64,000 bases of DNA from Clostridia bacterium. GTDB taxonomy: Bacteria; Bacillota; Clostridia; Lachnospirales; Lachnospiraceae. The notes under the pieces are model-generated. The model saw only the letters and a program-made list of their open reading frames with translations, was not told the DNA's origin and did not search any database. The DNA lies in assembly GCA_910574475.1 (NCBI GenBank), contig CAJTAT010000001.1:310001-374000 (forward strand), in the 5' to 3' direction. Positions 12,431 through 64,000 of this stretch are shown in pieces (position 1 is the first letter of the stretch; each line of letters starts with the position of its first letter). Both the position numbers and the translations under genes were made by a program.

Positions 12431-12523
12431 CTTTTGCTCCCCTGTCTTTTATTACCCCTACAAAGGGCTAGGATTCATACATAGTGTACGAAAACTGTCA
12501 AGAAAAGTCAAGGGTAACAACAT

Positions 12524-13609: not shown

Positions 13610-14481
13610 TGCCCTTTCTCCTCCTCACTAAAATAATAGAGATACAGATCTTCCAGGGTAGGCTCTGCTTCTATGGCTCCCTCCATAGGCTTAGTGTCGG
13701 AGATAATGCGCAGAATTGTCTCGTCTCCTGCATTTTTCAGATTACCCACATTGTACTCCTCCACATACTGCCCTGCCAATTTGGAATCTACCCGACATTC
13801 CCAGACGAGGCCCTGGGCCTCTTTCGTAATAACCTCTGGGGCTCCCCTGTGAATCAGCCTTCCATCCTTCATTACCAGAATTTCATCTGCAATATACTCC
13901 ACATCAGAGACAATATGGGTGGACAGCAGTACAATTTTATTTTGAGAAAAGGAGCTAATGAGGTTCCGAAAACGAACTCGTTCTTTGGGGTCAAGCCCGG
14001 CCGTAGGTTCATCCAAAATCAAAATCTCTGGCTCATTCAACATAGCCTGGGCAATTCCAAGCCTCTGCTTCATGCCCCCGGAAAAAGTCTTAATTTTTCT
14101 CTTTTTTTCATCCATAAGCCCTACAATATCCAAAAGCTCCAGGGCACGCAATTTTGCCTTCTCTTTTCCTATCCCTTTGAGGGATGCTATATAAAGCAAA
14201 AATTTATACGCTGTAAACTCAGGATAATACCCAAAATTCTGTGGAAGATAGCCCAGAATATTCCGATACTCTTCCCCCATTTTTCGAATATTCTGGCCAT
14301 TATAAAAAATCTCCCCTGATGTAGGATCCTGGATATCACAGAGCATCCGCATTAAAGTTGTCTTCCCTGCCCCGTTGGCTCCCAGCAAGCCATAGACCCC
14401 ACATTTTAGGTTCAAATCTATCCGATCTACTGCCAACTTTTGCTTGTATTGTTTTGTCAGTCGGTCCAGCCGAAGTTCCAT
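13606..14481 (-). CDS. ABC transporter ATP-binding protein
   Basis: The 291-residue ATPase has Walker A GANGAGKTT near residue 35, the Q-loop LPQNFGYYPEF near 78-88, the ABC signature SGGMKQRLGIAQ near 134-145 and Walker B ILILDEPTAGLD near 154-165. The C-terminal extension ends in a region typical of drug-export ATPases. It overlaps the membrane-protein gene upstream by 25 bases and the permease downstream by four, so the three are translationally coupled. It drives the neighbouring permease. Confidence 0.93.
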   Translation of the reverse strand: MELRLDRLTKQYKQKLAVDRIDLNLKCGVYGLLGANGAGKTTLMRMLCDIQDPTSGEIFYNGQNIRKMGEEYRNILGYLPQNFGYYPEFTAYKFLLYIASLKGIGKEKAKLRALELLDIVGLMDEKKRKIKTFSGGMKQRLGIAQAMLNEPEILILDEPTAGLDPKERVRFRNLISSFSQNKIVLLSTHIVSDVEYIADEILVMKDGRLIHRGAPEVITKEAQGLVWECRVDSKLAGQYVEEYNVGNLKNAGDETILRIISDTKPMEGAIEAEPTLEDLYLYYFSEEEKGQ

Positions 14482-15275
14482 CTTCCTTCCTCCTCTTTCT
14501 CTATTCCATGTAAAAATCGGATACTCAAAGCCGTCAAAAGCGTAGCGCTCACTACTATAAAAAATGTCAACGCCCAGGGACGAGACAGCTCATATATCAA
14601 CCAGGGCGCCTCCATAATTATCATGGAGATCTGTATCCAGAAAAGAGTCATTAATACAGCAGCTCCAATTAATACTGTCCCCTGAAATTTTCTGCGAAAA
14701 CGGGCCATCAAGTATAGATATACACTATCTGATAAAAGCTGAGGTACCAAAAAGAACAGCAGGAGTTCTTCGGCCCCAAATCCTAGGCTTAAGCCGCCTA
14801 CCATAACGCCGGCAACCACCAGGATGTCCGCTGCTGCAAATAATAACAAGCGCATACCAGCCAGTTGCCTCAAATTATACCGGCAAGCCTGCTCTAGTTC
14901 CCACATATTCTTTTGATAGCTGCGCATCACTTCCGTGAACCCAATGACTCCTATAATCGGTGCACATATGGACAGATTTGCCAGCACGATTTCTTTCATA
15001 TCGAACGGCGTATTTAAGATAGTTCCGAGAACCAGAACCAAAAGCCCCTGAAAAACCCACGCAGCAGGAGAAATATAAGCTGCCTGTTCCAACACCCGCT
15101 GTCCGTAAGGCTTTCGCAAGGTTATATGTATACTTTTCCTTTGGAGCCGCAAAAATTCCAGGCTTTGGCGCTTTCTCTCTTCCTCTATAACAGGTTCTTC
15201 TCTGCTTTCTAAAAACATACGAATTTCTTTTTCTAATTTTTTATTTTCCAAATCATTCCAATTCAACAAGAACAT
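14457..15275 (-). CDS. membrane protein of sigma/ABC operon
   Basis: The 272-residue protein has a charged N-terminal cytoplasmic segment of about 80 residues, then about six transmembrane helices, including the region around VFQGLLVLVLGTI. I do not recognise a named family. It overlaps the sigma factor upstream by 13 bases and the ATPase downstream by 25. Its place directly after an ECF sigma gene is where an anti-sigma factor is normally found. The soluble N-terminus plus membrane part would fit such a role, but no zinc-binding anti-sigma motif (HxxxCxxC) is visible. A second permease subunit is the alternative. Confidence 0.65.
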   Translation of the reverse strand: MFLLNWNDLENKKLEKEIRMFLESREEPVIEEERKRQSLEFLRLQRKSIHITLRKPYGQRVLEQAAYISPAAWVFQGLLVLVLGTILNTPFDMKEIVLANLSICAPIIGVIGFTEVMRSYQKNMWELEQACRYNLRQLAGMRLLLFAAADILVVAGVMVGGLSLGFGAEELLLFFLVPQLLSDSVYLYLMARFRRKFQGTVLIGAAVLMTLFWIQISMIIMEAPWLIYELSRPWALTFFIVVSATLLTALSIRFLHGIEKEEEGRWNFGWTD

Positions 15276-15811
15276 TCCTCCTGTCTCATATACCTCTTCA
15301 GCTTATCCATCCCCTGTTTCAGGCGGGACTTGGCCGTGGACATATTGATATCCACAATCTGCGCGATCTCCCGCAGTTTAAAGTCATAAAAGAAATGGAG
15401 AATAATGACTTCTCTCTGAGCCAAGGACAGGCAATCCAATGCCCTCAGTACCTGATCCGAAAGCTCCACCCGCTTTAATTCTGTATCCTCCTTTGGGATC
15501 CACTCCAGCATTTCCTCTCCCACAGTCTGTACAGAATTCTTTCGAAAATAATCAGTACAGACATTTGCCGCAATCCGGTACAGATAAGCCTTGAACTTTT
15601 TCTGCTCCACGTAAGTTTCTATATAGCGCAGCAAATGCAAAAAAGTCTCCTGGGTGCAATCGTAGGCTGCCTCCCGATCCCCGATCTTATAATAACAAAA
15701 CCGATAGATCCCATCGTAGTATTGTTCAATCAGAGTATCCAGAAGCTCTGCCTCGCCCTGTTTGATTCTGCCTATTATCTCACTGTCCTTCAGCTTGGAT
15801 CCCCTCCTCAT
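15263..15811 (-). CDS. ECF-type RNA polymerase sigma factor
   Basis: The 182-residue protein has sigma region 2 (YYDGIYRFCYYKIGD...YDCTQETFLHLLRY, about 27-62) and region 4 with helix-turn-helix (LSLAQREVIILHFFYDFKLREIA, about 128-150, then MSTAKSRLKQGMDKLK). It lacks region 3 and so belongs to the extracytoplasmic-function class. It is the first gene of a four-gene overlapping operon and probably drives its own promoter. The start is uncertain because the codons after ATG 15811 themselves spell AGGAGGGG. A later start with that sequence as ribosome binding site would need a non-standard codon. Confidence 0.88.
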   Translation of the reverse strand: MRRGSKLKDSEIIGRIKQGEAELLDTLIEQYYDGIYRFCYYKIGDREAAYDCTQETFLHLLRYIETYVEQKKFKAYLYRIAANVCTDYFRKNSVQTVGEEMLEWIPKEDTELKRVELSDQVLRALDCLSLAQREVIILHFFYDFKLREIAQIVDINMSTAKSRLKQGMDKLKRYMRQEECSC

Positions 15812-15865
15812 AGAAGCATCTTTTGCCCCTGTGTAAAACGTCTTACGAATACTATAACGGAAAAA

Positions 15866-15907
15866 GGCATAGAAAAGATTTAAGTTTTTTTAAATCTTTT
15901 CTATGCC
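15866..15907. terminator. strong bidirectional hairpin
   Basis: GGCATAGAAAAGATTTAA and its perfect complement flank a six-base T-rich loop, giving an 18-bp stem. It sits between the sigma factor start and the end of the DUF4132 operon. It fits a terminator for the long minus-strand operon that ends at 15951. Confidence 0.75.
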
Positions 15908-15950
15908 TTAAAATTACAACGTAACGCGTCTTTCTATACAGGGTACCTTT

Positions 15951-18900
15951 TTACCTTTTACACTCTGGATAATCCAATTGCTCCTGGCTGGACGCTGTAG
16001 CTTTCTCAAGCTGCAGAACAATTTCGCTGAAATAGCGGGGATTTATCTCTTCCAGAAGATAGCTGTTCTCATTTTTAATGGTGTCATAGACATAACTGCC
16101 CCGCTTCACAGTGCCGGCCTTATAGAAATTTACACCGTAGACTGTCACTTCATCATTTTCATCTCCCACATAACTTCCAGAAAATTCCAGTTCCACACCT
16201 ATTGGTCCGTCTTCCCGGTAGAAAGAAGAATAGACGCCTGCATCCTGTACGGAACCACGATACCAGCCCATACCCTGTAGCTTGCCAGACAGGGAGAGGC
16301 CATTCAACAGTTTTCCTCCAAAGCGTGTCAGCTCCTTTTCGCCTTTTTCTTCCTCCGTGAGTCGGTAAACAGGGCGATTTAACTGTTCAATAGGTTGGAC
16401 GACTTCATAGTCCTCCAATTGTTCTTTCCAGGTGGAAAGGCTCTCCTTCTCCAGCTCTATAGGATGTACAAGACCGATGCTTCCTGTCTCCGGCAGTCTA
16501 ATTTCCTCTTCATCCATGGTATTGAAACTTCCATCCTCCATATAGCGGAAGGTGTCTTTTAACACTCCATCTTCATAAACGCCCCAGATCAGGCCAATGG
16601 CAAACTGGTGCATCACAGGATTTTTCACAAAGAGCTCTTCCCAGGCAGAAAGGCTCCAGAGGCGCTCCGCCGTCAAGGCCTGTTCCAGGCGTAGCTTCTG
16701 ATTGGACACCACTGTCTTTAGTTGCTTTTTTAAATCCTTGAATTCTGCATAGGCGGCCGCTGCCGTCTCCTGCTCATCCCGTTTTCCGGGGGCGGGAAGG
16801 TTTTTTAGCTTCTTTTGAGCCTCATCAAAAATTTCCAGTTCCAGAGCAGGAGTCAGATACACATGGAAAGAGCGGGTTCCATAGTCAAAAATACGCTCCA
16901 TCTTTTCGTCAAAGCCCAGATTCGGCACAATCCGATCCTCAAGTTGAGCCCGGCTAATTCCAAGTGACGACGCCGCATATTCCAGGGCAGCCGCTGCTGC
17001 TGCCTTGACCTGTCGGAATTTAAATTTTCGGGAAATCTGATCCACAAAGAGGAGGGCCTGGGAGCTCCCGTTCAAAGCCAGAGCCTTTACGGCTTCTGCC
17101 GCCATAGCCCCTCTTGCATGCTGAGGCCATTCCTGAATCTGGCGCCGAAATGCAGGGACGATTTTTTCTGTGCCATGGAGAGAGACTGCATAGAGAACCC
17201 ATTTTTTCTTAGCCTCTGCCCCAGCTTCCACCCATTTGTCAAATAGCTCTGCCATATAGTCGGCAAGCTCCTTTTCTTCCAGATGATCAGCAAGTATTCC
17301 CGCCTCAGGGCTCACCCCCGGTACAAGCATATCAGCATAGGATACCAGAAGAGCCTGCATGTAATCCTCCTCTGCCACACTGCCGTCCTTTTTGTGAACT
17401 GGTGAAAATGGCGTCTCGTACGCCCAGGCTACTTTTCGTTTCTTTCCGCCTTTTAATATCTGTGTGGCAAGCTGCTGTGGCGTCTCTACCTTGGCTTCTT
17501 CTATCTCTGCCTTTCCTTCAATTCCAAGACAGCTTTGAAGCAGTTCCTTTAACTTCTTACTCTTCTCCACCTCCAAAGCTTTCGTAAGTTCTTCCTGATA
17601 TTTTTTAGCTCCCCAGGCCTTCATAACACGGATGCTAAGCTCCCGCTCCTGAGACTTCTTGGAAGAGAGCCCTGAGCGTATCTCCGGCTCCCATTCTTTA
17701 TGGAGTGTGCAGATGGTTACAAGCTGTTCCCGTACCTGCTTGGAACTGTCCAATGCACAAGATAAAATGGTCTCTTTTTCCTCCTGCCAGAAATAATCCA
17801 GAACACGAATACAGAGACAGCGCCCTATAGCCGTACTTTCCTTTGTGGCGTCCCTAAGCTCCTGTTCATGTTCCTTCCTCCTCTTGGATACAGCCTCCGC
17901 TGCCAAATCCAGAAAGAGAGTTTTGTCCCCTTCCCAGTAGTAAGCATTATAAATCCCTTCCATAGCATCCATCTGGTAATGTATGGGAAGCTTCTCATCC
18001 TCGAAAAGCTGAACTAATTTCTCCACATCTTTCTCATACTTCTTTCTGTGCAGCTCTTTGTCCTTATTGGCTCCTCCGGGAGTGAGGAAATAGGAGATAA
18101 AATAGCTGCCCTGCATCTGAAGTGCTTCTAAAATCACTCCCCTCTGAAACATTTCCTTGTTCATTCTCTGGAGATCATTTAACTTCTGAAACCTGCGGTA
18201 GTCATAGTGATAGCCCCCTCTCCAGGAATTGACAAAGGGGAAAAGATCTTCTAAGGATTCCTCTCCCAAAAGATAATTTTTTGCCTCTGTCTGTCCCGTT
18301 GTATATCTTCCTACCATTTCACCTGCAAGCTTCACCTGGTATTTGCCAGAAATAGCTGGCGTTTCCAACTGCCGATATAGAGCAGGATTCCCTTTTTTGA
18401 TCTGCTCTGTCACAAATAAATACTCATCCGTAGAGGTCTGTTCCACTGCCGTCTTCATAGCTTCAGGATACCGGGCTGCCATACGTACCAGTCCTTCTAC
18501 CTCTTTGCTGCTTATGTACCAGCGGATAAAATCATCCGTTTTCAGAGGAAGTAGCTTCTCAAGCTCTTCCAAATGGCCATAAAACCAAGAATGTTCCGCC
18601 ATGGCCTTGCAAGCGCTTAATGTAGCATTTGAGGAAAGAACAGCCATCAACTGTAAAAAAACAACCAGACATTTGGAGTGTTCCATTGCAAGGAAAGCAC
18701 ATGCCGACAGTAATGTAATCAGATAACCTGACGGCTGATTGCTGTGTAAAAGCTTTAAAAGGTCTTCTGGAATGGGTAATTCTGGTTTTCCATCTCTCAC
18801 CAAATCTTTCAGCCGTTTCAATTCTGTATCATTAGGTTTGGGCGAAGAAAGAATACTGGGCAGACTGCCGATAAGATTGTCTTCCAGGAACTTCACTGTA

Positions 18901-19511
18901 TTCTGAATCTCAAAATCTTCATTGGAACTATTTTTCGAAATCAATCCTTTCAGTAAGCCCCCTTTTTTCTCCTGAGGCTTTTTGTTATTCAGATAAATGC
19001 TGGCAAGAAGTACTTTTGCATTGGTATGCTCGTGATAGCATAGCTCCATAGCCCCTCTTAAAACCTCAGGCTCCTGTTTTCCTGTGTCAAACAACTGCTT
19101 CATCATACGCTGATTCAGGGCATAATTGTTCCAGACCAGTCCTTCCGCCCGCATAGCGATAAACTGCTCCTTCGTAAGATATTCCTGGATAGTGTTCACA
19201 TTCCAGCCGCTATTGTTCAGCATATAAGTAGCTGTAGAGCCCCCTACAGCCACAAGGAAGCGGACATAACGCTCTAAAATCTCCATACGGTTCCGCTTTT
19301 TACAGTGTTCTACATACTCTGTGCTCTTTCGCTGCTTTTCTTTGTCCAGTTTCGAAAAATCCTGTTGTTCCACCTCTTTTAATAGCTCTGGCCGCGCCGA
19401 CTGCTCCGGGCTTACATATTCTTCTGCCAACTTCTGGTTTTTCTCCGACAGTTCAAGAACATCCAGAATGTCCATAAGTTTTTGATAGTTTCTCTCCTCA
19501 TTTAAATTCAT
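15951..19511 (-). CDS. DUF4132 (MolR/YehI-like) protein
   Basis: The 1186-residue, mostly helical soluble protein lacks signal peptide and membrane segments. The C-terminal third (from about residue 880, LTAERLWSLSAWEELFVKNPVMHQF onward) carries the DUF4132 pattern seen in E. coli YehI (MolR) and in WGR-associated proteins. The N-terminal two thirds look like helical repeats of HEAT or ARM type. It is the last gene of the five-gene MoxR/DUF5682/VWA/SWIM/DUF4132 operon, six bases after the SWIM gene. The molecular role is unknown. The repeats suggest a large scaffold or substrate-binding platform for the MoxR/VWA chaperone pair, which is an inference. The earlier link of molR to molybdate metabolism in E. 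coli is historical and unproven. Confidence 0.85.
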   Translation of the reverse strand: MNLNEERNYQKLMDILDVLELSEKNQKLAEEYVSPEQSARPELLKEVEQQDFSKLDKEKQRKSTEYVEHCKKRNRMEILERYVRFLVAVGGSTATYMLNNSGWNVNTIQEYLTKEQFIAMRAEGLVWNNYALNQRMMKQLFDTGKQEPEVLRGAMELCYHEHTNAKVLLASIYLNNKKPQEKKGGLLKGLISKNSSNEDFEIQNTVKFLEDNLIGSLPSILSSPKPNDTELKRLKDLVRDGKPELPIPEDLLKLLHSNQPSGYLITLLSACAFLAMEHSKCLVVFLQLMAVLSSNATLSACKAMAEHSWFYGHLEELEKLLPLKTDDFIRWYISSKEVEGLVRMAARYPEAMKTAVEQTSTDEYLFVTEQIKKGNPALYRQLETPAISGKYQVKLAGEMVGRYTTGQTEAKNYLLGEESLEDLFPFVNSWRGGYHYDYRRFQKLNDLQRMNKEMFQRGVILEALQMQGSYFISYFLTPGGANKDKELHRKKYEKDVEKLVQLFEDEKLPIHYQMDAMEGIYNAYYWEGDKTLFLDLAAEAVSKRRKEHEQELRDATKESTAIGRCLCIRVLDYFWQEEKETILSCALDSSKQVREQLVTICTLHKEWEPEIRSGLSSKKSQERELSIRVMKAWGAKKYQEELTKALEVEKSKKLKELLQSCLGIEGKAEIEEAKVETPQQLATQILKGGKKRKVAWAYETPFSPVHKKDGSVAEEDYMQALLVSYADMLVPGVSPEAGILADHLEEKELADYMAELFDKWVEAGAEAKKKWVLYAVSLHGTEKIVPAFRRQIQEWPQHARGAMAAEAVKALALNGSSQALLFVDQISRKFKFRQVKAAAAAALEYAASSLGISRAQLEDRIVPNLGFDEKMERIFDYGTRSFHVYLTPALELEIFDEAQKKLKNLPAPGKRDEQETAAAAYAEFKDLKKQLKTVVSNQKLRLEQALTAERLWSLSAWEELFVKNPVMHQFAIGLIWGVYEDGVLKDTFRYMEDGSFNTMDEEEIRLPETGSIGLVHPIELEKESLSTWKEQLEDYEVVQPIEQLNRPVYRLTEEEKGEKELTRFGGKLLNGLSLSGKLQGMGWYRGSVQDAGVYSSFYREDGPIGVELEFSGSYVGDENDEVTVYGVNFYKAGTVKRGSYVYDTIKNENSYLLEEINPRYFSEIVLQLEKATASSQEQLDYPECKR

Positions 19512-19517
19512 AATAAT

Positions 19518-21602
19518 TTATCCCCTTTCTTTTCCTTCCATCATTCCTGCCAATACCTGATCAAGAGACACTTTATCCATACAAATATCTAGATAAGTCG
19601 TAAGCCGGATCCAGGATGTCAGTACAGGCTCCGGATCAAATTCCATCTGATGACGTTTTTCTCCTAAAGATTTATTTAAAAATGAAAGCTCCTCCCCTGC
19701 CCTGTGAAGCCCCAATTCCTCACTTTCCTTTGCCAGATGACCAAGGTTTACAAGGGTCTCCTCCCGAACAGAATTCAGACCGCTCTGGAAGAGATCCGAC
19801 AGAGTTTCCCGTATTTCTCTTAAAAATTGCTCCATACTCCGAAGCTGTTCCTGGTTCAACATTGAGATCTGTGGCGTCCCGAAAGGTCCTTCCTCCATCT
19901 CTTCCATTTCCTCCAAAAACCTTTGTCCCTCAAAGAATTCGATTGGGTAGAGACAAAGCTTTCCCTGTTCCACATAAAGGATTCCAAAAAACACCAGGGG
20001 AACCATTCCCCTTTTTTTCAGCCGTTCACTCAGGCGTTCCAAAACCTGGATTGTAAGTTTTTCTTCTTTAGAATACTTCACCGCTACAGAAAGACAGCAC
20101 CCTTCCCTGTCGCACAGTTCCATGGTAAAACGCTGCTTAACCGAATCAAAAGTACCCTCCCGACACTGGACAGCGCCTACAAAAGCCAGACGTTCTCTGT
20201 CCTTTTCCTGATGGTTCTCCTGAAAACAAGTCCTCAAAATCTCCCTGTAGTCCCAAAAAATCATCTGCCGTATCTCATTTTGATGCAAATCCCGGATTCC
20301 TACAATCTCACTTTTCGTCTCCTGGCTCACAGATAGCCTGCTGCCCCCCGCCACTTTCCCATGGCTCAGGTAAAACTCCAGCTCCATCATTTTTTCCCGG
20401 CTGCAGTTCAGTCCCCAGGGCGCCTGGACTTTATTATCACGTCCCGGCGGTCTTCTCCTCATTCCTTCATAAAAGGTGGGTCTTGCATCCGTCCAGGTAT
20501 ACCATTTCTTCTGATCTGTCTCCAAAAAATAATAAATCTCTCCCTCATATCCTGCGTTATTGCGAAAGCTCCTTCCTCCTATGGCCGTAAGGTGCAGCTG
20601 TGAAACTGGATAGTAGGTGTCCCGAAAAGTCCCTGCAAGCTTTCTTACCTCCTCCGTCTTTTTCGCCATTTCCAGTTTATTCGCCATATGATACAGCCCA
20701 AGAAGCTTCCCTGTAATGACTTCTGTGCGAAAGGCCGCTGAGCGTTCAAAATAGTTCTGATACTCCCCAGCCACATCTCTGCATCGTGTCTCAAAATCTG
20801 CCAATCCTGCCCCATGACTGATGACTGCCAGCCGTTCCATGCTCCCGGCAGCCTCAGGGGAAAGGCGCGACAAGCCTGTCATCAAGTGCAGACGGATCCC
20901 TTCCTTTATGGTATCTGCCACCTGTGCCAGCTCCTGAAAATCCCACTCTTCCTCGCTCTCAGACAGCCTCTTTAGCTCTTCCAGAGTCGTTGCTTTCTTT
21001 TTCAATTGAAAGGCCAAAATCGCCTGAGCCTTGTGAGTGCAAAGCTCCTTGCTGTGGCAGGTACAGGAAGAGTATTCCAGAGGGTTCAGCAATTTTACGG
21101 TACTGTTCTCCCAGGGAATTCGCACTGTGATCACAGTTCCCTCCCGGATCTCTGGGAAGTCCCCCGCCTCAATATGATTCAAAAATTCTCTATATTTTCT
21201 TGTCTTACAGGCTCCCTTTAATTTCTTCAAAGGCACAGCAAGAAGCTCCTGAACCATATGACCCTCATCCTTTTGGGCTTCTGTCTGAATATCAGGAGTC
21301 TTTGAAGCATCCGTGCCTGATTCAGGCTCATCTTTTACCAATTCTCTCTTTAGATAAAGAATGGCTGTAATCAAGTGACGGCAAATACTTCTGGAGGGAC
21401 AACTACACGTGCTCTCCCCCAAAGGCACACGAATACCGCACACCGTCTCTTTTAATGTCACCTGCGCTCCATCCTCCGTCCAGATCACAGTAGGGGCTTC
21501 CTGCTCCAGATCCTTATAAGCCCGCTTTACAGTTCCTTTATTACACAAGCCTATCAAATATTCATCGTCTGTCTGTCCCAGCAGACGTTTCAGTTCTTCC
21601 AT
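19518..21602 (-). CDS. double SWIM zinc-finger protein (YehQ-like)
   Basis: The 694-residue soluble protein has two SWIM-type zinc-binding motifs: Cys66-x-Cys68...Cys74-x-His76 and Cys180-x-Cys182...Cys188-x-His190. SWIM fingers bind DNA or proteins. Having two copies about 114 residues apart is notable, since the motif more often occurs once. The linker between them is charged (DEPESGTDASK). The rest of the protein has no family I can name. It corresponds by position and fold pattern to E. coli YehQ in the yehLMPQ/molR set. The gene starts 60 bases after the VWA gene ends and is followed six bases later by the DUF4132 gene. Confidence 0.85.
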   Translation of the reverse strand: MEELKRLLGQTDDEYLIGLCNKGTVKRAYKDLEQEAPTVIWTEDGAQVTLKETVCGIRVPLGESTCSCPSRSICRHLITAILYLKRELVKDEPESGTDASKTPDIQTEAQKDEGHMVQELLAVPLKKLKGACKTRKYREFLNHIEAGDFPEIREGTVITVRIPWENSTVKLLNPLEYSSCTCHSKELCTHKAQAILAFQLKKKATTLEELKRLSESEEEWDFQELAQVADTIKEGIRLHLMTGLSRLSPEAAGSMERLAVISHGAGLADFETRCRDVAGEYQNYFERSAAFRTEVITGKLLGLYHMANKLEMAKKTEEVRKLAGTFRDTYYPVSQLHLTAIGGRSFRNNAGYEGEIYYFLETDQKKWYTWTDARPTFYEGMRRRPPGRDNKVQAPWGLNCSREKMMELEFYLSHGKVAGGSRLSVSQETKSEIVGIRDLHQNEIRQMIFWDYREILRTCFQENHQEKDRERLAFVGAVQCREGTFDSVKQRFTMELCDREGCCLSVAVKYSKEEKLTIQVLERLSERLKKRGMVPLVFFGILYVEQGKLCLYPIEFFEGQRFLEEMEEMEEGPFGTPQISMLNQEQLRSMEQFLREIRETLSDLFQSGLNSVREETLVNLGHLAKESEELGLHRAGEELSFLNKSLGEKRHQMEFDPEPVLTSWIRLTTYLDICMDKVSLDQVLAGMMEGKERG

Positions 21603-21662
21603 CCTTCCTGCCTATCTCCTATAATCTCTATTAAGTCTCAAAGTACTGCCTGTCACCCCTGC

Positions 21663-22796
21663 TCACTGCATAATCTTCCCCATAAAGTCCCCCAGAGCTT
21701 CAGGAGTCATGGCTCCCACATGGGCTCCAAGATCCGCCAGCTGTTGGGCAGTCCGCCGATCATAGACAGGGTTGGCATCCATATCAAGAGCTGTCAGACA
21801 AATAAGCTTTGCTCCGCTCTCGATGATCCCCCGGCTGACGCCTAAAAGACCCTGGATACTTCCCCCCTCGCACAAGTCAGATACCAGTACCACCATGGTC
21901 TTCCCAGGGTTTTCGATCAATGTCTCACAGTACTTAAGAGCCCCGGCAATATAAGTTCCTCCCCCCAGTTGAATACTCATCAGAGTTTCTACCGGGTCAT
22001 CCATGTGCGCACTTAAGTCTACCACCTGAGTGTCGAATATGATCAGCCGTGTGTCCAGCATAGGAAGCTTTGCAAAGATTCCTGCCATCACGGCACTGTG
22101 AATGACAGAATCCAGCATGGATCCGCTCTCATCCACGGCAATTACTACCCGCCACTGACTGTACTTTCGGGTACGGCTGTTAAAATACACCTGATCAAGG
22201 AGCAGGCGCTGCTCCTCTCTGTCATAGTGCTGTAGATTCCTGCGTATGGTCTTGCGGATATCCAGGTTTCGCATGGATTTTACATGACTGGGTGTATTTC
22301 GATCCAAGCTTCCAAGAAGGGAGCGGCGAATGTCCCGGTTTAATTTTTCAGCAATCTCGTCCGCAACCTTTTTCACAATCCGCCGGGCCGTGTCCAGCAC
22401 TTCTCCCTTCATAAGATGTTTGAGCTGCAATATGGTTTTTAACAGCTCCTGATTGGGTTCCAGCTTTTCCAGCACTTCTTTGTCTGTAAGCAGCTCTGTC
22501 ATCCCGTAAGTTTCCAGGGCGTGGCGCTCCAACACCTCTACCGTCTCTCTAGGAAACAGTCGGCGAATCTTTGTAATCCATGTAGCTGCTGTAAGCTGAC
22601 TGGCTCCTGTGCCTCCCTCTCTTCGCACATCTTCCCCGTATTCCCGTGAATATAAAAAGTCCAGGGCGTCTTCCAGATCGTAGCAGGAGACGCCATTTTC
22701 CATACCTGCACTCTTTCCTGTTCCAAAGGAAATCTGATCCTTTGCAGTGCGGCCTAAAATCAGCCGCCAACGGTTCATCTGCTCTGTGTCTCTCAC
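21663..22796 (-). CDS. VWA-domain protein (YehP-like, MoxR partner)
   Basis: The 377-residue protein has a helical N-terminal half and a C-terminal von Willebrand A domain (about 215-377). The metal-ion-dependent adhesion site is complete: Asp222-x-Ser224-x-Ser226 (VDESGSM), a threonine at 281 (GGGTYIAGA) and Asp307 (VSDLCEGG). MoxR ATPases typically work with such VWA proteins as chaperones that insert metals or mature complexes. Its ATG overlaps the stop of the DUF5682 gene by four bases (ATGA), which signals tight coupling. There is no signal peptide, so it acts in the cytoplasm. Confidence 0.9.
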   Translation of the reverse strand: MRDTEQMNRWRLILGRTAKDQISFGTGKSAGMENGVSCYDLEDALDFLYSREYGEDVRREGGTGASQLTAATWITKIRRLFPRETVEVLERHALETYGMTELLTDKEVLEKLEPNQELLKTILQLKHLMKGEVLDTARRIVKKVADEIAEKLNRDIRRSLLGSLDRNTPSHVKSMRNLDIRKTIRRNLQHYDREEQRLLLDQVYFNSRTRKYSQWRVVIAVDESGSMLDSVIHSAVMAGIFAKLPMLDTRLIIFDTQVVDLSAHMDDPVETLMSIQLGGGTYIAGALKYCETLIENPGKTMVVLVSDLCEGGSIQGLLGVSRGIIESGAKLICLTALDMDANPVYDRRTAQQLADLGAHVGAMTPEALGDFMGKIMQ

Positions 22797-25234
22797 ATTT
22801 CCTCCCCTTTCATCTGTCTAATTACATATGCATCCAGCTCTTCTCCATAAGCATATTCTTTTGGATCCACCATTCTTCCTCTTAAAAGATCCTTCCCTTT
22901 CTTGCCATGGAGAGCGGCTGCCCTTCCGGCGATCCGGTCAACTTCGATGGGCGTAAAGTAGCCAAAAGCCATCCTTAGCTCCGGCAGGAGCTTTAAAAAT
23001 TCCTCAGAAGGAAGGCGGCCTAGCAATTCATCTATCAGTGTCAGAAAATTCTGACTCACAAATACAAAATCCCGGGCAGAAAAGAAAAGTCCTCGCAGAA
23101 AAGTTGCACTTTGGGCCAACATCTCTTCTGTTCCCCGTACATACCCCTGTGCTGTCCCGGCGATTTTTTCGCCATAATTGCTGTCATAACCGTACAAAAG
23201 TCCAAGGGTAACGCCTTCTACTGCCGGCTGAATGGGGCGGCGTTCCAGCAGGCGTTCCAAAGCTTCTGCCAAAACAGGGCGATAGTCGGTGTAAGCCTTC
23301 TTCCCTGTAATCTGATAAAGAGTCCGAAAATCTTCCATACACTCCTGCTGCTGTTCCTCTTTGATCTGCCCCATAGAGGGCAAAAGCTGGATAATTTTCT
23401 GAAAGCATACCTTTATCATTCGTTCCAGATCCATTCGATCCCGCACTTTATACAAATCCTGCAGTTCACTGAGAGTCAAAAGCTGGGAAAGTCCCTGGGT
23501 CAGAGAAAAGAAATCCCCATCCCCTGCAAGGACCTGGGAAAGATGTTCCCCCATCTTCTCCTGCTCATCAGACAAGCCCATAAGAAAACCACGGACAAGT
23601 AGTTCTGCCGCCTCTCTGCACCCTGTGCTCTTATCAAACCGTGAATGTAACAAGGAATGGACTGCCTCTGCAATGGTTCCCCCAGAAATAGAGGCGTCAA
23701 TCAGAGCAGCCATCACCTGGCTGGACCATTTATAAGTCCAAATCTCCCGAATCCGGTTTCTGTCTCTGCGGTTCACCAGATCGGAACCCTTTTTCCGTTT
23801 GGCAAAGCCACAGTCCAGGAATTCTGTCTGATAAAAGAAACGACTCATCTTAAGATGCTTTTCCTTAGCAAAGATTTCTAATGTAACCTCCTGCTCCATG
23901 GCAGAATGAATTTTCAGTCCAAAATATTTGCATTGTTCTTCAAAGTCTGAGAGCATAGGCGGACGCATCGCGTCTGCACAGAGGCTTCCCACCTGGCTTC
24001 CCGTGACTAACTCTTTCAAAGCACGCATAGCGCCATCTGTGGAAACACTGTACTCGCCTTTCACAAAGCAGGAAAGGGCGCTGTCCCTAAGCTCATAAAG
24101 GCCAGGCTCTTGTTTCCCCCGAAGAGCTGCCAGTCCTTCCGCCATAGAAAATGCACAAATCTCATCATAGGAAGAAATGCTCTCTTCCTTTCTGCGGGCC
24201 CTCCTCCCTGACATGGCCAAAAAATGAAGAACTGCATCTTTATAAACGCCCTCAGAACTTCCTTCTGATTCAAGAGACTTCCAGACCTGGTGATAGAAGC
24301 CGGGAGACTGCATACCGCTGGCATAGCCATTTAAAGCGTCTGCTGCTTCCATAGAATAAGACATGGGATAGACCTCTTCTCCATCCTCTCTGGTATTGTG
24401 AAGTTTTACTGATTTGCCCTGAAAGCGTACTTTTTTTCCAAAATCCTCTTCGATCAGGTCGCCGAAGCCGCAGGTGTGAAATCCGCCTGTCACCACAAGA
24501 ATCCGCCTAAAATCCTGGGAAGTCTTCGCAATCTGCTCTGCCATGTACTGCTCCCGCAAAAGACAGCCATCCTCTTCCATCTCTTCCCTGGGTGTATTTT
24601 GACGGGACAGCGCGCAATATGTAAGCATTTGGCGCACAAAAACCTTAGTTTCTTGGTGCAGGCCCTGAATTTCAAAATATTTCTCCCACAGCTCCTCAAA
24701 ATCCCGAAGGCCCGTCTTCTCGCAGAGAAGGGCCAGGTACCGGCTGCGGCTCAATAAGTAGTCGTCATTATAAGTCTGCTTTTCTCCTTTTCGACGGATC
24801 CCCTGATTCTCCTTCGTCCCAATGAGGATTTCTCCATAGGGGAGATCGATAAATCTGGCCTCTATCCCCCGTTTTGCCGCTTCCCGCAAAGCCACCAGCT
24901 CTGGCGAACAGTCGAGAAAGGGGTAGTAACATTTATAATCTTCTTTCTCCGGGCTTACCAGACCCTTTTTATCCCGGTAAGCATAGTAAAGAGCCAAGGG
25001 CGGTTTTGTATCAGGATGTGTCAGCACAGGAATGAGATTTTCCGCATTTTCAGGCCCCTCTATCAAAATACAATCCGGCTCATAATCAGCGATTGCTCTT
25101 TTCAGGTGAAAGGCACAGGCAGGACTGTGATGGCGGACTGGAAAATACAGGATGGGCCTTGTTAAATCATAACAGTTTTCAACCAGTTTGGACACTACCG
25201 CAGGTATTTCCTGGCCTCGTAATAGCTGCTCCAT
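22793..25234 (-). CDS. DUF5682 family protein (YehM-like)
   Basis: The 813-residue soluble protein starts with a conserved block containing YFPVRHHSPACAFHLK (about 31-46) and CILIEGPENAENL (about 55-67), typical of the DUF5682 family. A later segment RILVVTGGFHTCGFGD (about 244-259) has a catalytic look, with His and Gly clusters similar to TraB/PrgY-type or haem-uptake-like enzymes. This resemblance is tentative. It overlaps the MoxR gene by 40 bases and the VWA gene by four. The family appears almost always with MoxR and VWA genes, so it is probably a dedicated subunit or substrate of that complex. Its reaction, if any, is unknown. Confidence 0.85.
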   Translation of the reverse strand: MEQLLRGQEIPAVVSKLVENCYDLTRPILYFPVRHHSPACAFHLKRAIADYEPDCILIEGPENAENLIPVLTHPDTKPPLALYYAYRDKKGLVSPEKEDYKCYYPFLDCSPELVALREAAKRGIEARFIDLPYGEILIGTKENQGIRRKGEKQTYNDDYLLSRSRYLALLCEKTGLRDFEELWEKYFEIQGLHQETKVFVRQMLTYCALSRQNTPREEMEEDGCLLREQYMAEQIAKTSQDFRRILVVTGGFHTCGFGDLIEEDFGKKVRFQGKSVKLHNTREDGEEVYPMSYSMEAADALNGYASGMQSPGFYHQVWKSLESEGSSEGVYKDAVLHFLAMSGRRARRKEESISSYDEICAFSMAEGLAALRGKQEPGLYELRDSALSCFVKGEYSVSTDGAMRALKELVTGSQVGSLCADAMRPPMLSDFEEQCKYFGLKIHSAMEQEVTLEIFAKEKHLKMSRFFYQTEFLDCGFAKRKKGSDLVNRRDRNRIREIWTYKWSSQVMAALIDASISGGTIAEAVHSLLHSRFDKSTGCREAAELLVRGFLMGLSDEQEKMGEHLSQVLAGDGDFFSLTQGLSQLLTLSELQDLYKVRDRMDLERMIKVCFQKIIQLLPSMGQIKEEQQQECMEDFRTLYQITGKKAYTDYRPVLAEALERLLERRPIQPAVEGVTLGLLYGYDSNYGEKIAGTAQGYVRGTEEMLAQSATFLRGLFFSARDFVFVSQNFLTLIDELLGRLPSEEFLKLLPELRMAFGYFTPIEVDRIAGRAAALHGKKGKDLLRGRMVDPKEYAYGEELDAYVIRQMKGEEM

Positions 25235-26310
25235 AAGCCGCCCTCTTTTCCTCCTTTATCACGAATCACAGTCTGAAAGTAGCTGCGAAGCTTTTCCAGA
25301 TCGTCCTTATTCTCCTTCTGCACTGCCCCCACAAGGTTTTGTACCAGACAGCTCATATCCATCTCACCATCTCCATAATAATAAGCAGTCATCATGGTCT
25401 GGTAGTAGACAGACACGGCTTCCGCCGTGCTCATCACTGCGGAGGGTCGATCAATTCGATGTCCCAGGGAGGACACGCCCTCGCGTAATTCATGATACGT
25501 GGATGCCAGAATCCCGGCCACATCCTCATCTGCCGGCATGTCAATCTGATTTTCCCTGGCAAGCTCCTCTACTTCATTTAAAATAATCTGCTTTTCCAGG
25601 GCCACGTCACGGATGGGCATCACTGTCTCAAAGTTAAAACGCCGCTTCAGGGCGCTACTCATCTCATTGACGCCCTTATCTCTTGTATTTGCCGTACCGA
25701 TCACATTAAAGCCTGCTTTGGCAAAGAGAAGTCCCTCTTCCCCTAGCTCCGGCACATTCAGAACCTTATCGCTCAGAACGCTTATGAGGCTGTCCTGAAT
25801 CTCCGCCGGAGTACGTGTAATCTCCTCAAAACGTGTCAGGATTCCCCGCTCCATCCCTACATACAAAGGCGAGGGCACAAGGGCTTCCCGGGTTGGGCCC
25901 TTTGCCAATAGTAAGGCATAGTTCCAGCTATATTTGATCATATCTTCTGTCGTTCCCGCAGTTCCCTGGATGGTGTTGGTACTCGTGCCGCTGATAGCCG
26001 CGGAGAGAAGCTCTGAGAGCATGGTCTTGGCCGTTCCCGGCTCGCCTACCAGCATAAGCCCCCGGTTGCCTGCCAGTGTAATGATACAGCGCTCCACCAG
26101 GGCGTCATTTCCCAGATATTTTTTCCGTATGGAAATCTCCCGTCCCTGATAGGAAAGGGGTTCCTTGCTTCCCAGAATAAAGGTCCGCACTGCTTTCGGC
26201 GATAGTTTCCAGTTGACGGGCCGCTTGCCTGTATCCAGAGCGGCCAAAGCTTCTAATTCTTCTTGATAACGCACCTCCACGGGCGGTTTGATGGTTGTGG
26301 TTTGGTTCAC
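25195..26310 (-). CDS. MoxR-family AAA+ ATPase (YehL-like)
   Basis: The 371-residue ATPase has Walker A GEPGTAKT (89-96), a Walker B region RFEEITRTP (160-168) that replaces the common DEIN with FEEI, sensor-1 GTANTRD (205-211) and an arginine finger region LKRRFNFE (221-228). MoxR proteins form hexamers that remodel or activate partner proteins with the help of VWA proteins. It heads the five-gene operon and would be its motor. The start used (MNQTTTIKPP) is preceded by GGAAAAGGAGAC, a good ribosome binding site. Gene set and sequence type point to the YehL branch of the MoxR family, the least studied of the branches. Confidence 0.92.
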   Translation of the reverse strand: MNQTTTIKPPVEVRYQEELEALAALDTGKRPVNWKLSPKAVRTFILGSKEPLSYQGREISIRKKYLGNDALVERCIITLAGNRGLMLVGEPGTAKTMLSELLSAAISGTSTNTIQGTAGTTEDMIKYSWNYALLLAKGPTREALVPSPLYVGMERGILTRFEEITRTPAEIQDSLISVLSDKVLNVPELGEEGLLFAKAGFNVIGTANTRDKGVNEMSSALKRRFNFETVMPIRDVALEKQIILNEVEELARENQIDMPADEDVAGILASTYHELREGVSSLGHRIDRPSAVMSTAEAVSVYYQTMMTAYYYGDGEMDMSCLVQNLVGAVQKENKDDLEKLRSYFQTVIRDKGGKEGGLWSSYYEARKYLR

Positions 26311-26373
26311 GTTTTTGTCTCCTTTTCCTGTAGGTTGTGGGTTGATTCTGTTTGATTTAAATTCTTTTTAATC

Positions 26374-26463
26374 TCATTCAGGCTTCTTTTCCAATTCAAT
26401 TCTTACTGCTTTACTTGCACGTTTTACAACAGTTTCGTCTGAAATATATTCTTCACGCTTCAT
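26374..26463 (-). CDS. very small ORF, possible gene remnant
   Basis: The frame reads 29 residues (MKREEYISDETVVKRASKAV...) after a good ribosome binding site (GAAAGGGGCAGAGAAT). The peptide is charged and helical. It resembles the N-terminal end of short antitoxin-like or regulatory proteins and stops early. I do not recognise it. It could be a truncated gene or a leader peptide for the MoxR operon 60 bases downstream. Confidence 0.3.
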   Translation of the reverse strand: MKREEYISDETVVKRASKAVRIELEKKPE

Positions 26464-26625
26464 ATTCTCTGCCCCTTTCTATTCGCTTTTTTCTACTATT
26501 TCCACTTTCAGTCTTTTCCTGTTTTCATTGTAAAATCGTTTAAATACCTCCTAATTTCTTTATATAAAATCCTACTTCCTGGTGATATATTTGTAAAGAG
26601 ATTTTTGCTTTTAATCAACCAAAAA

Positions 26626-26650
26626 AGCACTACCGTATAGCGATAATGCT
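26626..26650 (-). terminator. terminator
   Basis: AGCATTATCG/CTATA/CGGTAGTGCT forms a 10-bp stem, followed on the minus strand by TTTTTT. It ends the transcript of the AAA ATPase and the small frame behind it. Confidence 0.75.
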
Positions 26651-26657
26651 TCTGTTT

Positions 26658-26853
26658 TCATTCTCCTATAGAAGCTCCCATTTTTTTTAAATAAGGCTCC
26701 AATATTTTGATAATTAGTCCTTTATGCTGCCTTCCATAAAACAACCCCTTCCTGTGTTACATTTTGATAGAATGGGGTAATTCCTTCCCACCTACAGAAA
26801 TTTTCATAATCAATATCAATTACAGAAAAAACTTTATCATATTTTAAATTCAT
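26658..26853 (-). pseudogene. small frameshifted ORF of unknown function
   Basis: The frame opens at 26853, 15 bases after the upstream ATPase gene, and reads 43 residues (MNLKYDKVFSVIDIDYENF...) to a stop at 26722. Shifting by one base near the GGGGTTGTTTT run lets the reading continue as FYGRQHKGLIIKILEPYLKK to a stop at 26658. That would give about 65 residues with uniform helical character. I read this as one small gene with a lost base, or as a sequencing indel. The function is unknown. Confidence 0.35.
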
Positions 26854-26868
26854 ATCTACAATAATGCC

Positions 26869-27624
26869 TCACACTTGCTTTTCTTCCCCCAGCAACCGCT
26901 CTAAAAGGTACTCTCTATGGTTGAGAAACATCTCTGTCACCTGGTAACTCTCTGTCTCTGTATATTCTATGGGACGAATTTCCCCGTCGTCAAAGGATAA
27001 AATTGTAATATCTGGAAGTCCAAGCAAAATAGGGGAATGGGAGGCGATCAAAAACTGACTGCCTGCCTGAGCCAGGCGATGAATACAGATAAGCAGAGTA
27101 AGCTGGCGCTGAGGAGAGAGGGCTGCTTCCGGCTCATCCAGCAAATAGAACCCCTGATCCTGAAAACGGTTCTGCATCAAGGCCAGAAAACTTTCCCCAT
27201 GGGACTGCTCATGAAGGGAACGGCCGCCGTACCGCCGATAATAAATCTCTGGCCTATCACCGTCCCTGTATTCCTCCACCTGGGTTGCCACATTGTAGAA
27301 GCTTTCCGCCCGAAGGAAAAAATTGTCCCGGGGCCTTCGATATCCTTTACGCAATGTCATCCCCTTATACAGAGAGGAATGAGTATCTCTGGTGGAAAAA
27401 CGGAAGTTTTTGCTTCCTCCCTCTGGGTTTATCCCGTAGGAGGCAGCGATTGCCTCCAGAAGAGTTGATTTTCCTGTCCCGTTCTCTCCCACAAAAAAGG
27501 TAACTGGTTTTTCAAACCTTATAGAGTCTATTTCCCGCAACGCTGCGATCTCGTGGAGATAAGAATCTGAATCTACCTTATCCCAGTCAATGGTCAGTCC
27601 ATTTACAAAAAGGCTGTCTCTCAT
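26869..27624 (-). CDS. ABC-type AAA ATPase (RecF/OLD-like), small
   Basis: The 251-residue soluble ATPase has Walker A VGENGTGKSTLLEAI (about 47-61), an ABC-like signature SHGESFLALMQNRF (about 141-154) and Walker B GFYLLDEPEAALSP (about 158-171), followed by the H-loop LIASHSPILL. This small type (often COG3910-like) is widespread, and its role is unclear. Some relatives act in DNA damage or phage defence. There is no membrane partner, so it is not a transporter ATPase. The start has AAGGAGGGC seven bases upstream. It lies 42 bases after a small gene of unknown function on the same strand. Confidence 0.85.
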   Translation of the reverse strand: MRDSLFVNGLTIDWDKVDSDSYLHEIAALREIDSIRFEKPVTFFVGENGTGKSTLLEAIAASYGINPEGGSKNFRFSTRDTHSSLYKGMTLRKGYRRPRDNFFLRAESFYNVATQVEEYRDGDRPEIYYRRYGGRSLHEQSHGESFLALMQNRFQDQGFYLLDEPEAALSPQRQLTLLICIHRLAQAGSQFLIASHSPILLGLPDITILSFDDGEIRPIEYTETESYQVTEMFLNHREYLLERLLGEEKQV

Positions 27625-27666
27625 TTGCCCTCCTTGTTCCCCATAAATCCGCTTAACTTCTGTCTG

Positions 27667-27915
27667 CTAGTGCCAGTCTTTCATCAGCTCTAAAAGCTCT
27701 GTCTCATAATCTCCAAGCAGCTCTTCCTGCCGTCCGCCGCTTCGCAGGTTCGTTTCCACTCCCCGTTCGCCATCCTCAAATTCCCAGATGTGATAGGGAA
27801 CGCCCCGGTAATCAAAATCAATGCTTCCGCATCCGTCCTCCTCACTGTACGTATAGCTCCATCCCCGCTCTTGGATGAATGTAAGGACACGTTTTAAATG
27901 TGCTGTCTGTTCCAT
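27667..27915 (-). CDS. small conserved protein of unknown function
   Basis: The 82-residue acidic protein (MEQTAHLKRVLTFIQERGW...) is rich in aromatic residues and has no membrane segment. The start follows CAGGAGGAACAC, a good ribosome binding site. I know similar short proteins from Lachnospiraceae only as hypothetical or mis-named kinase-like entries. It is probably in one transcript with the small AAA ATPase behind it. Confidence 0.6.
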   Translation of the reverse strand: MEQTAHLKRVLTFIQERGWSYTYSEEDGCGSIDFDYRGVPYHIWEFEDGERGVETNLRSGGRQEELLGDYETELLELMKDWH

Positions 27916-27957
27916 GTGTTCCTCCTGCTATTCTAAGTTCCGCTTAGCCGTAAAGCT

Positions 27958-28167
27958 TCATGATTTCACAATGGAAATCACGCCGGCAATCACCAGTATG
28001 GGCAACGCCAGGTACGTCAGCCCCATGAAAAGCAATGCAATCAAAATCAGGGGGAGAAATACGATTGAAAATAGGATTTTTATTAGTCCCCAGGATGCTT
28101 TCAATGCAAACATCAGCAATTTTCCAAAAATAATAAATACTAAGACTACGAATAATAAAGTCAACAT
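27958..28167 (-). CDS. small hydrophobic membrane protein
   Basis: The 69-residue protein consists almost wholly of two or three hydrophobic stretches (MLTLLFVVLVFIIFGKLL..., then IVFLPLILIALLFMGLTYLA and LPILVIAGVISIV). GGAGTGAT five bases upstream of the ATG supports the start. A rival frame of 77 residues overlaps it but has no such composition or signal. The function is unknown. Small membrane proteins of this kind are common in Lachnospiraceae. Confidence 0.55.
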   Translation of the reverse strand: MLTLLFVVLVFIIFGKLLMFALKASWGLIKILFSIVFLPLILIALLFMGLTYLALPILVIAGVISIVKS

Positions 28168-28309
28168 TTTTTATCACTCCAATTTTTTTATATTTAGTTT
28201 ATAACAAAAAATTAGAGAATTCAATAGCAGCTGACCAACTGATATTTGACTTTTGTATGGTTTTCGCTTATTCTTTAGTTATAGCTTATGTGTAATTAAA
28301 TGCTAACAC

Positions 28310-28640
28310 AGGAATACGAACTATACAATCACATACACGAATAACGAAGGGAAATGAAAAGCTGCCGCCAGCTTTGGTTCATGAAAAACCTTATACAATC
28401 GATGATATTTACGCTTTACCAGAGGGGCAGCGTGCAAAACTGATTGATGGGCAAATATATATAATGGCTCCTGCGAGCCTTTTTTGCCCCGTTCGCTGTA
28501 TTTTGGGATAAAGATGATACAAATTATGTCGAACCAGATATCTCTATTATATGTGATCGTGAAAAACTCACCGACAAAGGTTGCTCCGGCGCGCCAGACT
28601 GGGTAATTGATTATTATCAAGCTTGGGAGCCACCGTTCTC
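28310..28640 (+). pseudogene. Uma2-family nuclease remnant, N-terminal and middle part
   Basis: Translated pieces match the Uma2 family (PD-(D/E)XK-like putative endonucleases common in transposon-rich bacteria). They are TITYTNNEG, then EKLPPALVHEKPYTIDDIYA, LIDGQIYIMAPAS and, after an internal deletion, PFAVFWDKDDTNYVEPDIS and CSGAPDWVID. At least one extra A near 28353, the internal deletion near 28478 and loss of the C-terminal part make it non-functional. The C-terminal part of a Uma2 gene occurs 19.5 kb away at 48090. The region from 28168 to 28310 is AT-rich and shows no gene. Confidence 0.8.
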
Positions 28641-28702
28641 ACACAAACAGATGACTATCGTATTTATGTTTTCCTTAATCACCGTCATAGCTTTGTCCTC
28701 CG

Positions 28703-61957: not shown

Positions 61958-62010
61958 AAAAAATCTTCCTTAAATAAGATAATCCAAATATAACTTTATT
62001 TACTTAATAG

Positions 62011-62997: not shown

Positions 62998-62999
62998 AT

Positions 63000-63866: not shown

Positions 63867-63884
63867 AAAAATTCTCCATTTCAT

Positions 63885-64000
63885 TAAACCAATTATAGAA
63901 GCTACGGCAAGCGTCCATTTTTACGTCTTTACATTATATTTTGTCAAAAATATTGGAATCCTTAATTGCCCAGTCTTTTCCCAAATTACTTTCCTTCACT
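63885..64000. other. right edge, no gene seen
   Basis: The last 116 bases are upstream of the transferase. They show no frame with a start signal and may contain its promoter. Confidence 0.4.

Follow-up and report, generated by a model that had tools for sequence, protein, structure and literature searches.

A conserved MoxR/VWA gene set of a Lachnospiraceae genome, shared with Escherichia coli, contains a DUF5682 protein with a putative Tiki-type domain

Do five neighbouring genes encoding a MoxR ATPase, a DUF5682 protein, a VWA protein, a SWIM zinc-finger protein and a DUF4132 protein form one functional unit, and if so, what would this unit do? These questions are raised by a locus in a Lachnospiraceae genome (assembly GCA_910574475.1, contig CAJTAT010000001.1), of which a stretch of 64,000 nucleotides (positions 310,001 to 374,000), referred to here as the window, was analyzed. 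An original prediction, made from the sequence alone, equated the genes with yehL, yehM, yehP, yehQ and yehI (molR) of E. coli, and proposed that they encode one machine, possibly for protein maturation or for stress and defence. Our analyses make it nearly certain that the five genes encode one machine. They also point to three features that had been missed, namely a Tiki-like domain in the DUF5682 protein, a sixth module fused to the SWIM protein, and a second gene order.

The genes are ordered MoxR, DUF5682, VWA, SWIM and DUF4132, span positions 15951-26310, and are separated by -40, -4, 60 and 6 bases; they and all motifs described below are on the (-) strand. They encode a YehL-type AAA+ ATPase (25195-26310; 371 aa), a YehM orthologue (22793-25234; 813 aa), a YehP orthologue of the CoxE type (21663-22796; 377 aa), a YehQ orthologue with a fused C-terminal module (19518-21602; 694 aa) and a YehI orthologue (15951-19511; 1186 aa). 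All five proteins exceed the respective Pfam cut-offs: AAA_5 (116 bits), PF18934 (367.9 bits, cut-off 26), VWA_CoxE (PF05762; 154.6 bits, cut-off 26.4), SWIM (27 bits) and DUF4132 (191 bits). Each also finds its E. coli counterpart. The MoxR protein is 47% identical to K-12 YehL over 367 columns, and the VWA and DUF5682 proteins are 43.5% and 24.9% identical to YehP and YehM, respectively. The DUF4132 protein shares 36% identity with YehI over about 360 C-terminal residues, and the SWIM protein matches YehQ weakly (25% identity over the N-terminal part, E 1e-9). The gene positions, the spacing of at most 60 bases and the E. coli correspondence of the original prediction were therefore all recovered. 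The E. coli cluster yehI-yehK-yehLMPQ contains the same five orthologues and shares the order MoxR-DUF5682-VWA-SWIM with the window, but DUF4132 precedes these four genes in E. coli and follows them in the window.

If the genes function together, they should be found together in other genomes. A scan for YehL-type MoxR proteins yielded 591 relatives, and co-occurrence was counted in the nearest 80, which is not a random sample. The closest of these are from Lachnospiraceae or Clostridia, and the 80 loci include Clostridia, Bacilli, Spirochaetales, Planctomycetota, Myxococcales, Verrucomicrobium, Pseudomonas, Variovorax and Sphingomonas. On the same strand as MoxR, DUF5682 was found in 77 loci, VWA in 70, SWIM in 69, DUF4132 in 62, and all five in 60. 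When only the 54 loci flanked by 9 kb or more on each side are considered, DUF5682 is present in 54, VWA in 51, SWIM in 52, DUF4132 in 49, and the complete set in 49. Rare co-occurrence of the five families, which would have refuted the original prediction, is thus not observed, and the set is conserved across phyla. Three well-flanked loci lack a separate VWA gene; in one of them (L079) VWA is fused to DUF5682, and the genomes of the other two (L027 and L080) have a VWA gene outside the fetched stretch.

The comparison of DUF5682 neighbourhoods, also called for by the original prediction, gave the same picture in the reverse direction. DUF5682 is present in 24 of 250 genomes of the window's family, and MoxR and VWA accompany it in 24 and 23, respectively, of 25 family loci (from 23 other genomes); the gaps are two loci at contig ends (L147 and L155) and one without VWA that is not at a contig end (L133). 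In a sample of the phylum, 5 of 299 genomes had DUF5682 above the cut-off, and in the four other than the window's own, VWA lies next to it in all four and MoxR in three, the fourth being at a contig end. Three PF18934 matches below the cut-off (L014-L016), with no gene of the system in the fetched stretches, were treated as false. All 23 genomes tested contain DUF5682; of these, only Brachyspira had not shown it at the locus before. In this metagenome-assembled genome (MAG), a lone MoxR gene (L066; 8 kb before and 10 kb after it) coexists with DUF5682 and VWA on two other contigs. The five proteins have correlated distance matrices (r 0.67-0.945; 57 loci); the mirror-tree permutations ignore relatedness and therefore show co-inheritance, not contact. 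That the five are chance or historical neighbours without a joint function might be argued from the position of DUF4132, which can be first, last or between VWA and SWIM. We consider this highly improbable, because the content is constant while the order shifts, because one MAG has retained the genes although they are unlinked, and because fusions occur (see below). The DUF5682 set is thus a widespread bacterial machine, that of E. coli included.

The order MoxR-DUF5682-VWA-SWIM-DUF4132 is found in 32 of the 80 loci; DUF4132 comes first in 18 and before SWIM in 7, and the remaining loci are rearranged (3) or incomplete (20, many at contig ends). Besides this yeh kind, which we call type I, there is a type II order consisting of SWIM (~476-542 aa), a HEAT-like protein that takes the place of DUF4132, MoxR, DUF5682 (~750 aa) and VWA. 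Of the 25 family loci, 16 fall into a lower score class on all profiles, which goes with type II, although some are cut by contig ends; the type I profile sees the SWIM protein in 10 of these 16, weakly (18-25 bits). When ORFs (open reading frames) were chosen by position, the SWIM protein of type II matched that of type I at 97.2% and the HEAT-like protein matched the DUF4132 family profile at 91.6%, while crossed pairs remained below 1%. Both types coexist in two genomes of the window's own family, G526 and G593. In annotated records of Rhizobium and Deinococcus, the order is SWIM-DUF5691-AAA-DUF5682-VWA; with the two DUF5691 sequences tested, no relationship to DUF4132 or the HEAT-like protein was found (1.3% and 0.4%). 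In L149, a UvrD-type helicase gene (12282-15635) lies between MoxR and DUF5682, and on an Iodobacter plasmid (L160) the system, with its SWIM gene split in two ORFs, adjoins a restriction-modification set and insertion sequence elements.

A first testable hint at what the machine may do comes from the DUF5682 protein, which looks related to a family with proteases among its members. Profile alignment makes it very likely that its N-terminal ~260 residues form a Tiki-type domain (residues ~25-260; 24455-25162). This region aligned with five TraB_PrgY_gumN proteins at an hhalign probability of 91.3%, and with thirteen at 94.0% (E 1.4e-7); from the latter set, L199 (no motif by pattern) and L195 (below cut-off) were left out, and the weak ChaN matches L187-L189 were dropped. 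As controls for the five-protein comparison, 51 unrelated neighbour families reached at most 6.4% against DUF5682 and at most 3.2% against TraB, and the other four families of the system reached no more than 0.6%. TraB and ChaN, both named Tiki families, matched each other at only 4.2% in the same set-up. DUF5682 matched ChaN at 22.4% with all rows and at 29.9% without the type II rows. The type II DUF5682 set, including a Streptomyces row, reached 89.5% against the thirteen TraB proteins.

The alignment is supported by five motifs, whose conservation was counted in 110 rows covering both gene-order types as well as Rhizobium, Deinococcus and Streptomyces, after ORFs shorter than 700 aa (650 aa in a second set) had been dropped. 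Motif 1, VRHHSP (25121-25138), contains H35, aligns with G[ST]xH of TraB and has the His in 109 of 109 readable rows. The Glu of motif 2, LIEGP (E59; 25052-25066), and the Asp of motif 3, FIDLP (D130; 24839-24853), are likewise present in 109 of 109. Motif 4, REQYM (R227, E228 and M231; 24542-24556), aligned with R[DN]xxM/L of TraB, and motif 5, TGGFH (G250 and H253; 24476-24490), aligned with GxxH, are conserved in 110 of 110 rows. The register with TraB is kept at H35, at E59, at R227 and M231, and at G250 and H253, and by eye D130 aligns with an aspartate of the PrgY type. The H, E, R and GxxH motifs are thus in register with those of TraB/PrgY/GumN and ChaN proteins, but unlike these, DUF5682 adds about 500 residues and sits in an AAA+ operon, and none of ten N-termini passes either Pfam cut-off. 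The best score for PF01963 (TraB_PrgY_gumN) among the ten proteins is 16.1 bits against a cut-off of 26.8. Judged by its profile, DUF5682 is therefore a relative of TraB_PrgY_gumN and not a PF01963 member. According to passages of PMC6254334, the Tiki protease RRSP needs two His, two Glu and one Arg, of which DUF5682 retains both active-site His (H35 and H253), one Glu (E59, corresponding to that after the second strand) and an Arg (R227, corresponding to the conserved basic residue). In one congener, DUF5682 is split in two ORFs in an otherwise complete locus (L018 11077-13539 and L148 8709-11171, on equally long contigs and thus probably one record).

Several observations weigh against a Tiki-type hydrolase. 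The TraB match depends on the set: it was 5.1% with two TraB proteins, 5.9% with the subset L097-L099 and 86.4% with L100-L101, and against the full-length DUF5682 profile all five gave 79.3% over just 41 columns. The type II DUF5682 set alone scored 65.7% against the five TraB proteins and just 2.7% against ChaN, and the decoy controls cover the five-protein comparison only. A Pfam scan, which is independent of these alignments, favours the domain in that it listed ChaN or TraB below the cut-off for four of ten DUF5682 N-termini (best E 0.0016, residues 16-222), but it listed neither for the other six; chance families scored about equally in several, and in the window protein they outscored both. 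The comparison of the DUF5682 profile with solved structures gave five weak matches, the best (E 0.031) being to a designed protein. An EreA-like protein matched at 0.1-0.2%, and it was rejected as the nearest Tiki branch. Moreover, the first Glu of the 2His/2Glu site (ExH in the Ere/RRSP branch) is missing, nearly all DUF5682 rows having VRH or IRH at this position. TraB shares this absence, being mostly G[ST]xH, but we leave the chemistry open for this reason. Finally, the fold is no proof of hydrolysis, since the Tiki superfamily also contains ChaN, which is named as haem-binding. The link between DUF5682 and Tiki is counted as new here. DUF5682 was not mentioned in the literature searched; most subscription papers lie outside it, and the link may thus be in print elsewhere. 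Among the papers listed by a further search, none mentioned DUF5691 or paired MoxR with Tiki, and one (PMC3751524) has MoxR together with "TraB family".

The MoxR and VWA proteins resemble a known type of motor. Walker A of the MoxR protein (GEPGTAKT, residues 89-96; 26023-26046) corresponds to GEPGTAK[TS] in 83 of 85 YehL-type MoxR proteins, and the Walker A, Walker B, sensor and arginine-finger motifs are invariant across a five-row alignment, in agreement with the earlier statement that the ATPase is intact. The FEEI sequence of the Walker B region, noted earlier in place of DEIN, is really there (RFEEI, residues 160-164; 25819-25833), but it is no oddity: it is a family trait found in 77 of the 85 proteins, E. 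coli YehL included. Judged by orthology to YehL and its intact motifs, the window MoxR belongs to the YehL subfamily, one of seven MoxR subfamilies (Snider & Houry 2006, as cited in a passage of PMC3893208). The same source mentions two MoxR ATPases in E. coli K-12, of which YehL is one; the passages on yeh genes consulted, there and elsewhere, give no function for YehL. The bpMoxR model, which bears on the MoxR-vWA ternary conflict systems discussed below, scored 22.9 bits, below its cut-off of 27. Alone, the MoxR sequence had no match among solved structures at E<=0.001, and the nearest solved chain to its profile was Midasin (E 8.9e-17), followed more weakly by Lon, 2r44 and McrB.

The VWA protein is assigned by its sequence to VWA_CoxE with a complete metal ion-dependent adhesion site (MIDAS): DESGSM (residues 222-227; 22116-22133) corresponds to DxSGSM in 73 of 76 VWA proteins, and the predicted residues D222, S224 and S226, together with T281 and D307, are invariant in a five-row alignment. 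Its profile had no match among solved structures at E<=5. A single ORF carries DUF5682 and VWA in L079 and in Streptomyces (L157), and a third fusion is probable in a planctomycete (G615:C223), where both matches lie within one open frame of 1648 aa. Because both occur as one protein, DUF5682 and VWA probably touch.

NorQD, CbbQO and CoxDE likewise combine a MoxR AAA+ ring with a MIDAS-containing VWA partner, and they act on nitric oxide reductase, Rubisco and carbon monoxide dehydrogenase, respectively (PMC3893208 and PMC13036017; PMC4660213 for Rubisco). Unlike these, the yeh-type operon itself encodes a putative enzyme as well as SWIM and HEAT-like parts. In the NorQD structures, the VWA protein inserts a finger into the MoxR ring, and the ring twists the VWA protein; the authors presume the docking of the finger in the pore to be general, and Midasin and McrB are also cited there for finger-in-pore assembly (passages of PMC13036017). 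The same passages describe docking of the VWA domain of Midasin on its ring; Midasin/Rea1, the nearest solved AAA relative of the MoxR profile, is one giant eukaryotic chain that functions in ribosome assembly, unlike the window set.

We tentatively propose, with somewhat less than even confidence, an ATP-driven machine in which a MoxR ring, via a VWA adaptor, drives a Tiki-type DUF5682 hydrolase. The YehL-type MoxR would assemble as a hexameric ring, in which the VWA protein would dock while bound to DUF5682. ATP turnover would then strain or remodel DUF5682, opening or loading its Tiki-type active site, and the opened site would hydrolyse a substrate, most likely at a peptide bond. The SWIM protein, a small partner and the HEAT-like DUF4132 may serve as scaffold and in substrate or nucleic-acid recognition. 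We infer the ring and adaptor steps from homology; the effector step is the weakest. The more specific idea of an undescribed ATP-dependent proteolytic machine, in which MoxR/VWA feed or remodel substrates for a Tiki-type protease DUF5682 and the SWIM and HEAT-like parts select them, is doubtful.

A cofactor-maturation chaperone, in which MoxR/VWA would insert metal or haem and DUF5682 would be a carrier or client with ChaN-like binding, is possible, although on the whole rather unlikely. It would fit the CoxE type of the VWA protein, the insertion of metals by known MoxR/VWA pairs (passages of PMC13036017; CoxD in PMC3893208), the His in the invariant DUF5682 site, and a ChaN/Cofac_haem_bdg match below threshold across the whole domain in L145 (E 0.0016). 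However, the best DUF5682 match is to the TraB profile and not to ChaN, and no constant metalloenzyme neighbour came to light: the most widely recurring neighbour family besides the sixth module, of diguanylate-cyclase type, is found in 14 of 86 loci, four of the neighbour families having been identified.

The remaining parts of the hydrolase machine that we favour may bear on what it recognizes. The two SWIM fingers reported before are present (CxCx5CxH, residues 66-76, 21375-21407, and 180-190, 21033-21065); among 69 relatives, 42 have two copies of the pattern, 26 have a single copy, and one lacks it. Residues 585-678 of the SWIM protein (19569-19850) form the sixth module of ~100 residues, which looks helical by eye and matches the profile of a stand-alone protein of ~90-170 aa (i-Evalue 7.6e-18) that follows SWIM in many loci, mostly of Bacillota. 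Across 86 loci, 30 have the module as a free protein and 21, the window among them, have it fused to SWIM, whereas none has both; in 7 loci a weak second copy lies in the middle of the SWIM protein. At this threshold, neither form was found in 22 of 73 SWIM-bearing loci, some of them at contig ends, nor was the module found in E. coli. YehK was rejected as its counterpart: it matches neither a Pfam family nor the module profile, no wider YehK search having been made. One stand-alone protein matches GlnD_UR_UTase below the cut-off (E 0.0011). The literature searched does not mention MoxR together with "SWIM zinc finger".

SWIM and DUF4132 might also direct the machine to nucleic acid or to complexes that are damaged, in quality control under DNA damage or stress. 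In Deinococcus, the DUF4132 gene DRA0166 and the MolR-like WGR gene DR2173 are strongly up on DdrO depletion (passages of PMC8533742), and in an E. coli record a WGR-DUF4132 gene lies beside yehI. As the two Deinococcus genes are only putative members of a DUF5682 system, we regard this as unlikely; moreover, it describes a role and not a rival chemistry. The WGR-DUF4132 gene corresponds to yehF plus the pseudogene yehH in K-12 (L002 4475-8270), and to a single coding sequence of 1262 aa in another E. coli record. Regulation of molybdate by molR is unsupported by the literature looked at.

The distribution of the genes in E. coli also bears on their role. The block yehL-yehQ is covered for at least 80% in 5162 of 5426 genomes and has any match in 5301; it is found at a median of one place per genome (at most two), with 5320 chromosomal places and 2 on plasmids. 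It is thus core in E. coli, being present in ~95% of the genomes searched. The ratios of nonsynonymous to synonymous substitution rates (dN/dS), determined for one strain pair, were 0.03 for yehL, 0.11 for yehM, 0.08 for yehP, 0.09 for yehQ and 0.20 for yehI, which reveals purifying selection on all five in this pair. Because the set is core and chromosomal in E. coli and has low dN/dS values, a housekeeping or stress role suits it better than that of a defence island.

The defence role considered in the original prediction, here as an anti-phage or conflict system akin to the ternary systems with MoxR and vWA described by Kaur et al. 2020, whose third component is VMAP, iSTAND or a beta-propeller, is accordingly quite improbable. 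It would agree with the patchy distribution outside E. coli (5 of 299 phylum and 24 of 250 family genomes), with the presence of DUF5682 in 35 of 72,556 plasmid and 1 of 50,697 phage records, and with the flanking genes. At E<=1e-20, 16 PADLOC models were found among 110 flank ORFs versus 5 among 105 distant ORFs, which may slightly favour defence; these are counts of models and not of distinct proteins, and no protein ratio is claimed. The ORFs (110 of 128 flank and 105 of 132 distant, at least 150 aa, from 18 loci and 18 regions) were sampled at random under a size limit, those above 1500 aa being dropped. Eight of the 16 models are candidate-defence "PDC" models. However, the others are generic (UvrD-type, desaturase). 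In addition, no PADLOC 2.0.0 model fits DUF5682, VWA, SWIM or DUF4132 at E<=0.01, the MoxR protein having a single match (IetA, E 0.007), and the set is core in E. coli. None of 32 pattern matches in viral contigs is a relative, and the text of Kaur et al. 2020 names neither YehL, SWIM nor DUF4132. Several of the matches in the plasmid collection are in records of 4-12 Mb, which are probably chromosomes. Taken together, the original interpretation is partly supported.

The downstream surroundings of the set in the window appear to be separate. A terminator-like hairpin with 20 pairs and a T tail (15864-15909; one found, 0.1 expected from shuffles) lies directly after DUF4132, between the set and a gene for an extracytoplasmic function (ECF) sigma factor (15263-15811), which is therefore probably a separate unit. 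The downstream ECF sigma and ABC genes were rejected as parts of the system, because the terminator intervenes and because a 539-aa ORF comes next in the congener locus L148. An Rfam scan of positions 14000-29000 gave no match above the gathering score. Besides the ECF sigma factor, the region 12524-15811 (-) encodes a protein of 272 aa that has no Pfam match and is perhaps the anti-sigma factor, as well as an ABC ATPase and a membrane protein that is ABC-2-like; it looks like a separate sigma/transporter unit. Upstream of MoxR (26869-27915, (-)) lie two genes, one for an ABC/SMC-type ATPase of 251 aa and one for a protein of 82 aa that has no Pfam match; they recur in three and four close relatives, respectively, and in L036 the small gene immediately precedes MoxR. 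The MMPL-family protein encoded at 28703-31096 (-) has heptad repeats of the form X-X-X-Leu-X-X-Gly and weak matches of coiled-coil type. The GC content is 0.31-0.34 at positions 58001-64000 and 0.36-0.50 elsewhere in the window.

If the hydrolase reading is true, MoxR/VWA motors, which are best known for the maturation of other enzymes, would in addition drive an enzyme that belongs to their own set. A proteolytic machine, if that is what the set encodes, would be the first MoxR machine with a built-in dedicated hydrolase, carried by 95% of the E. coli genomes searched. Candidate residues of an active site follow from the Tiki link, and a physical contact is indicated by the fusions; the question can therefore be tested in an ordinary K-12 strain.

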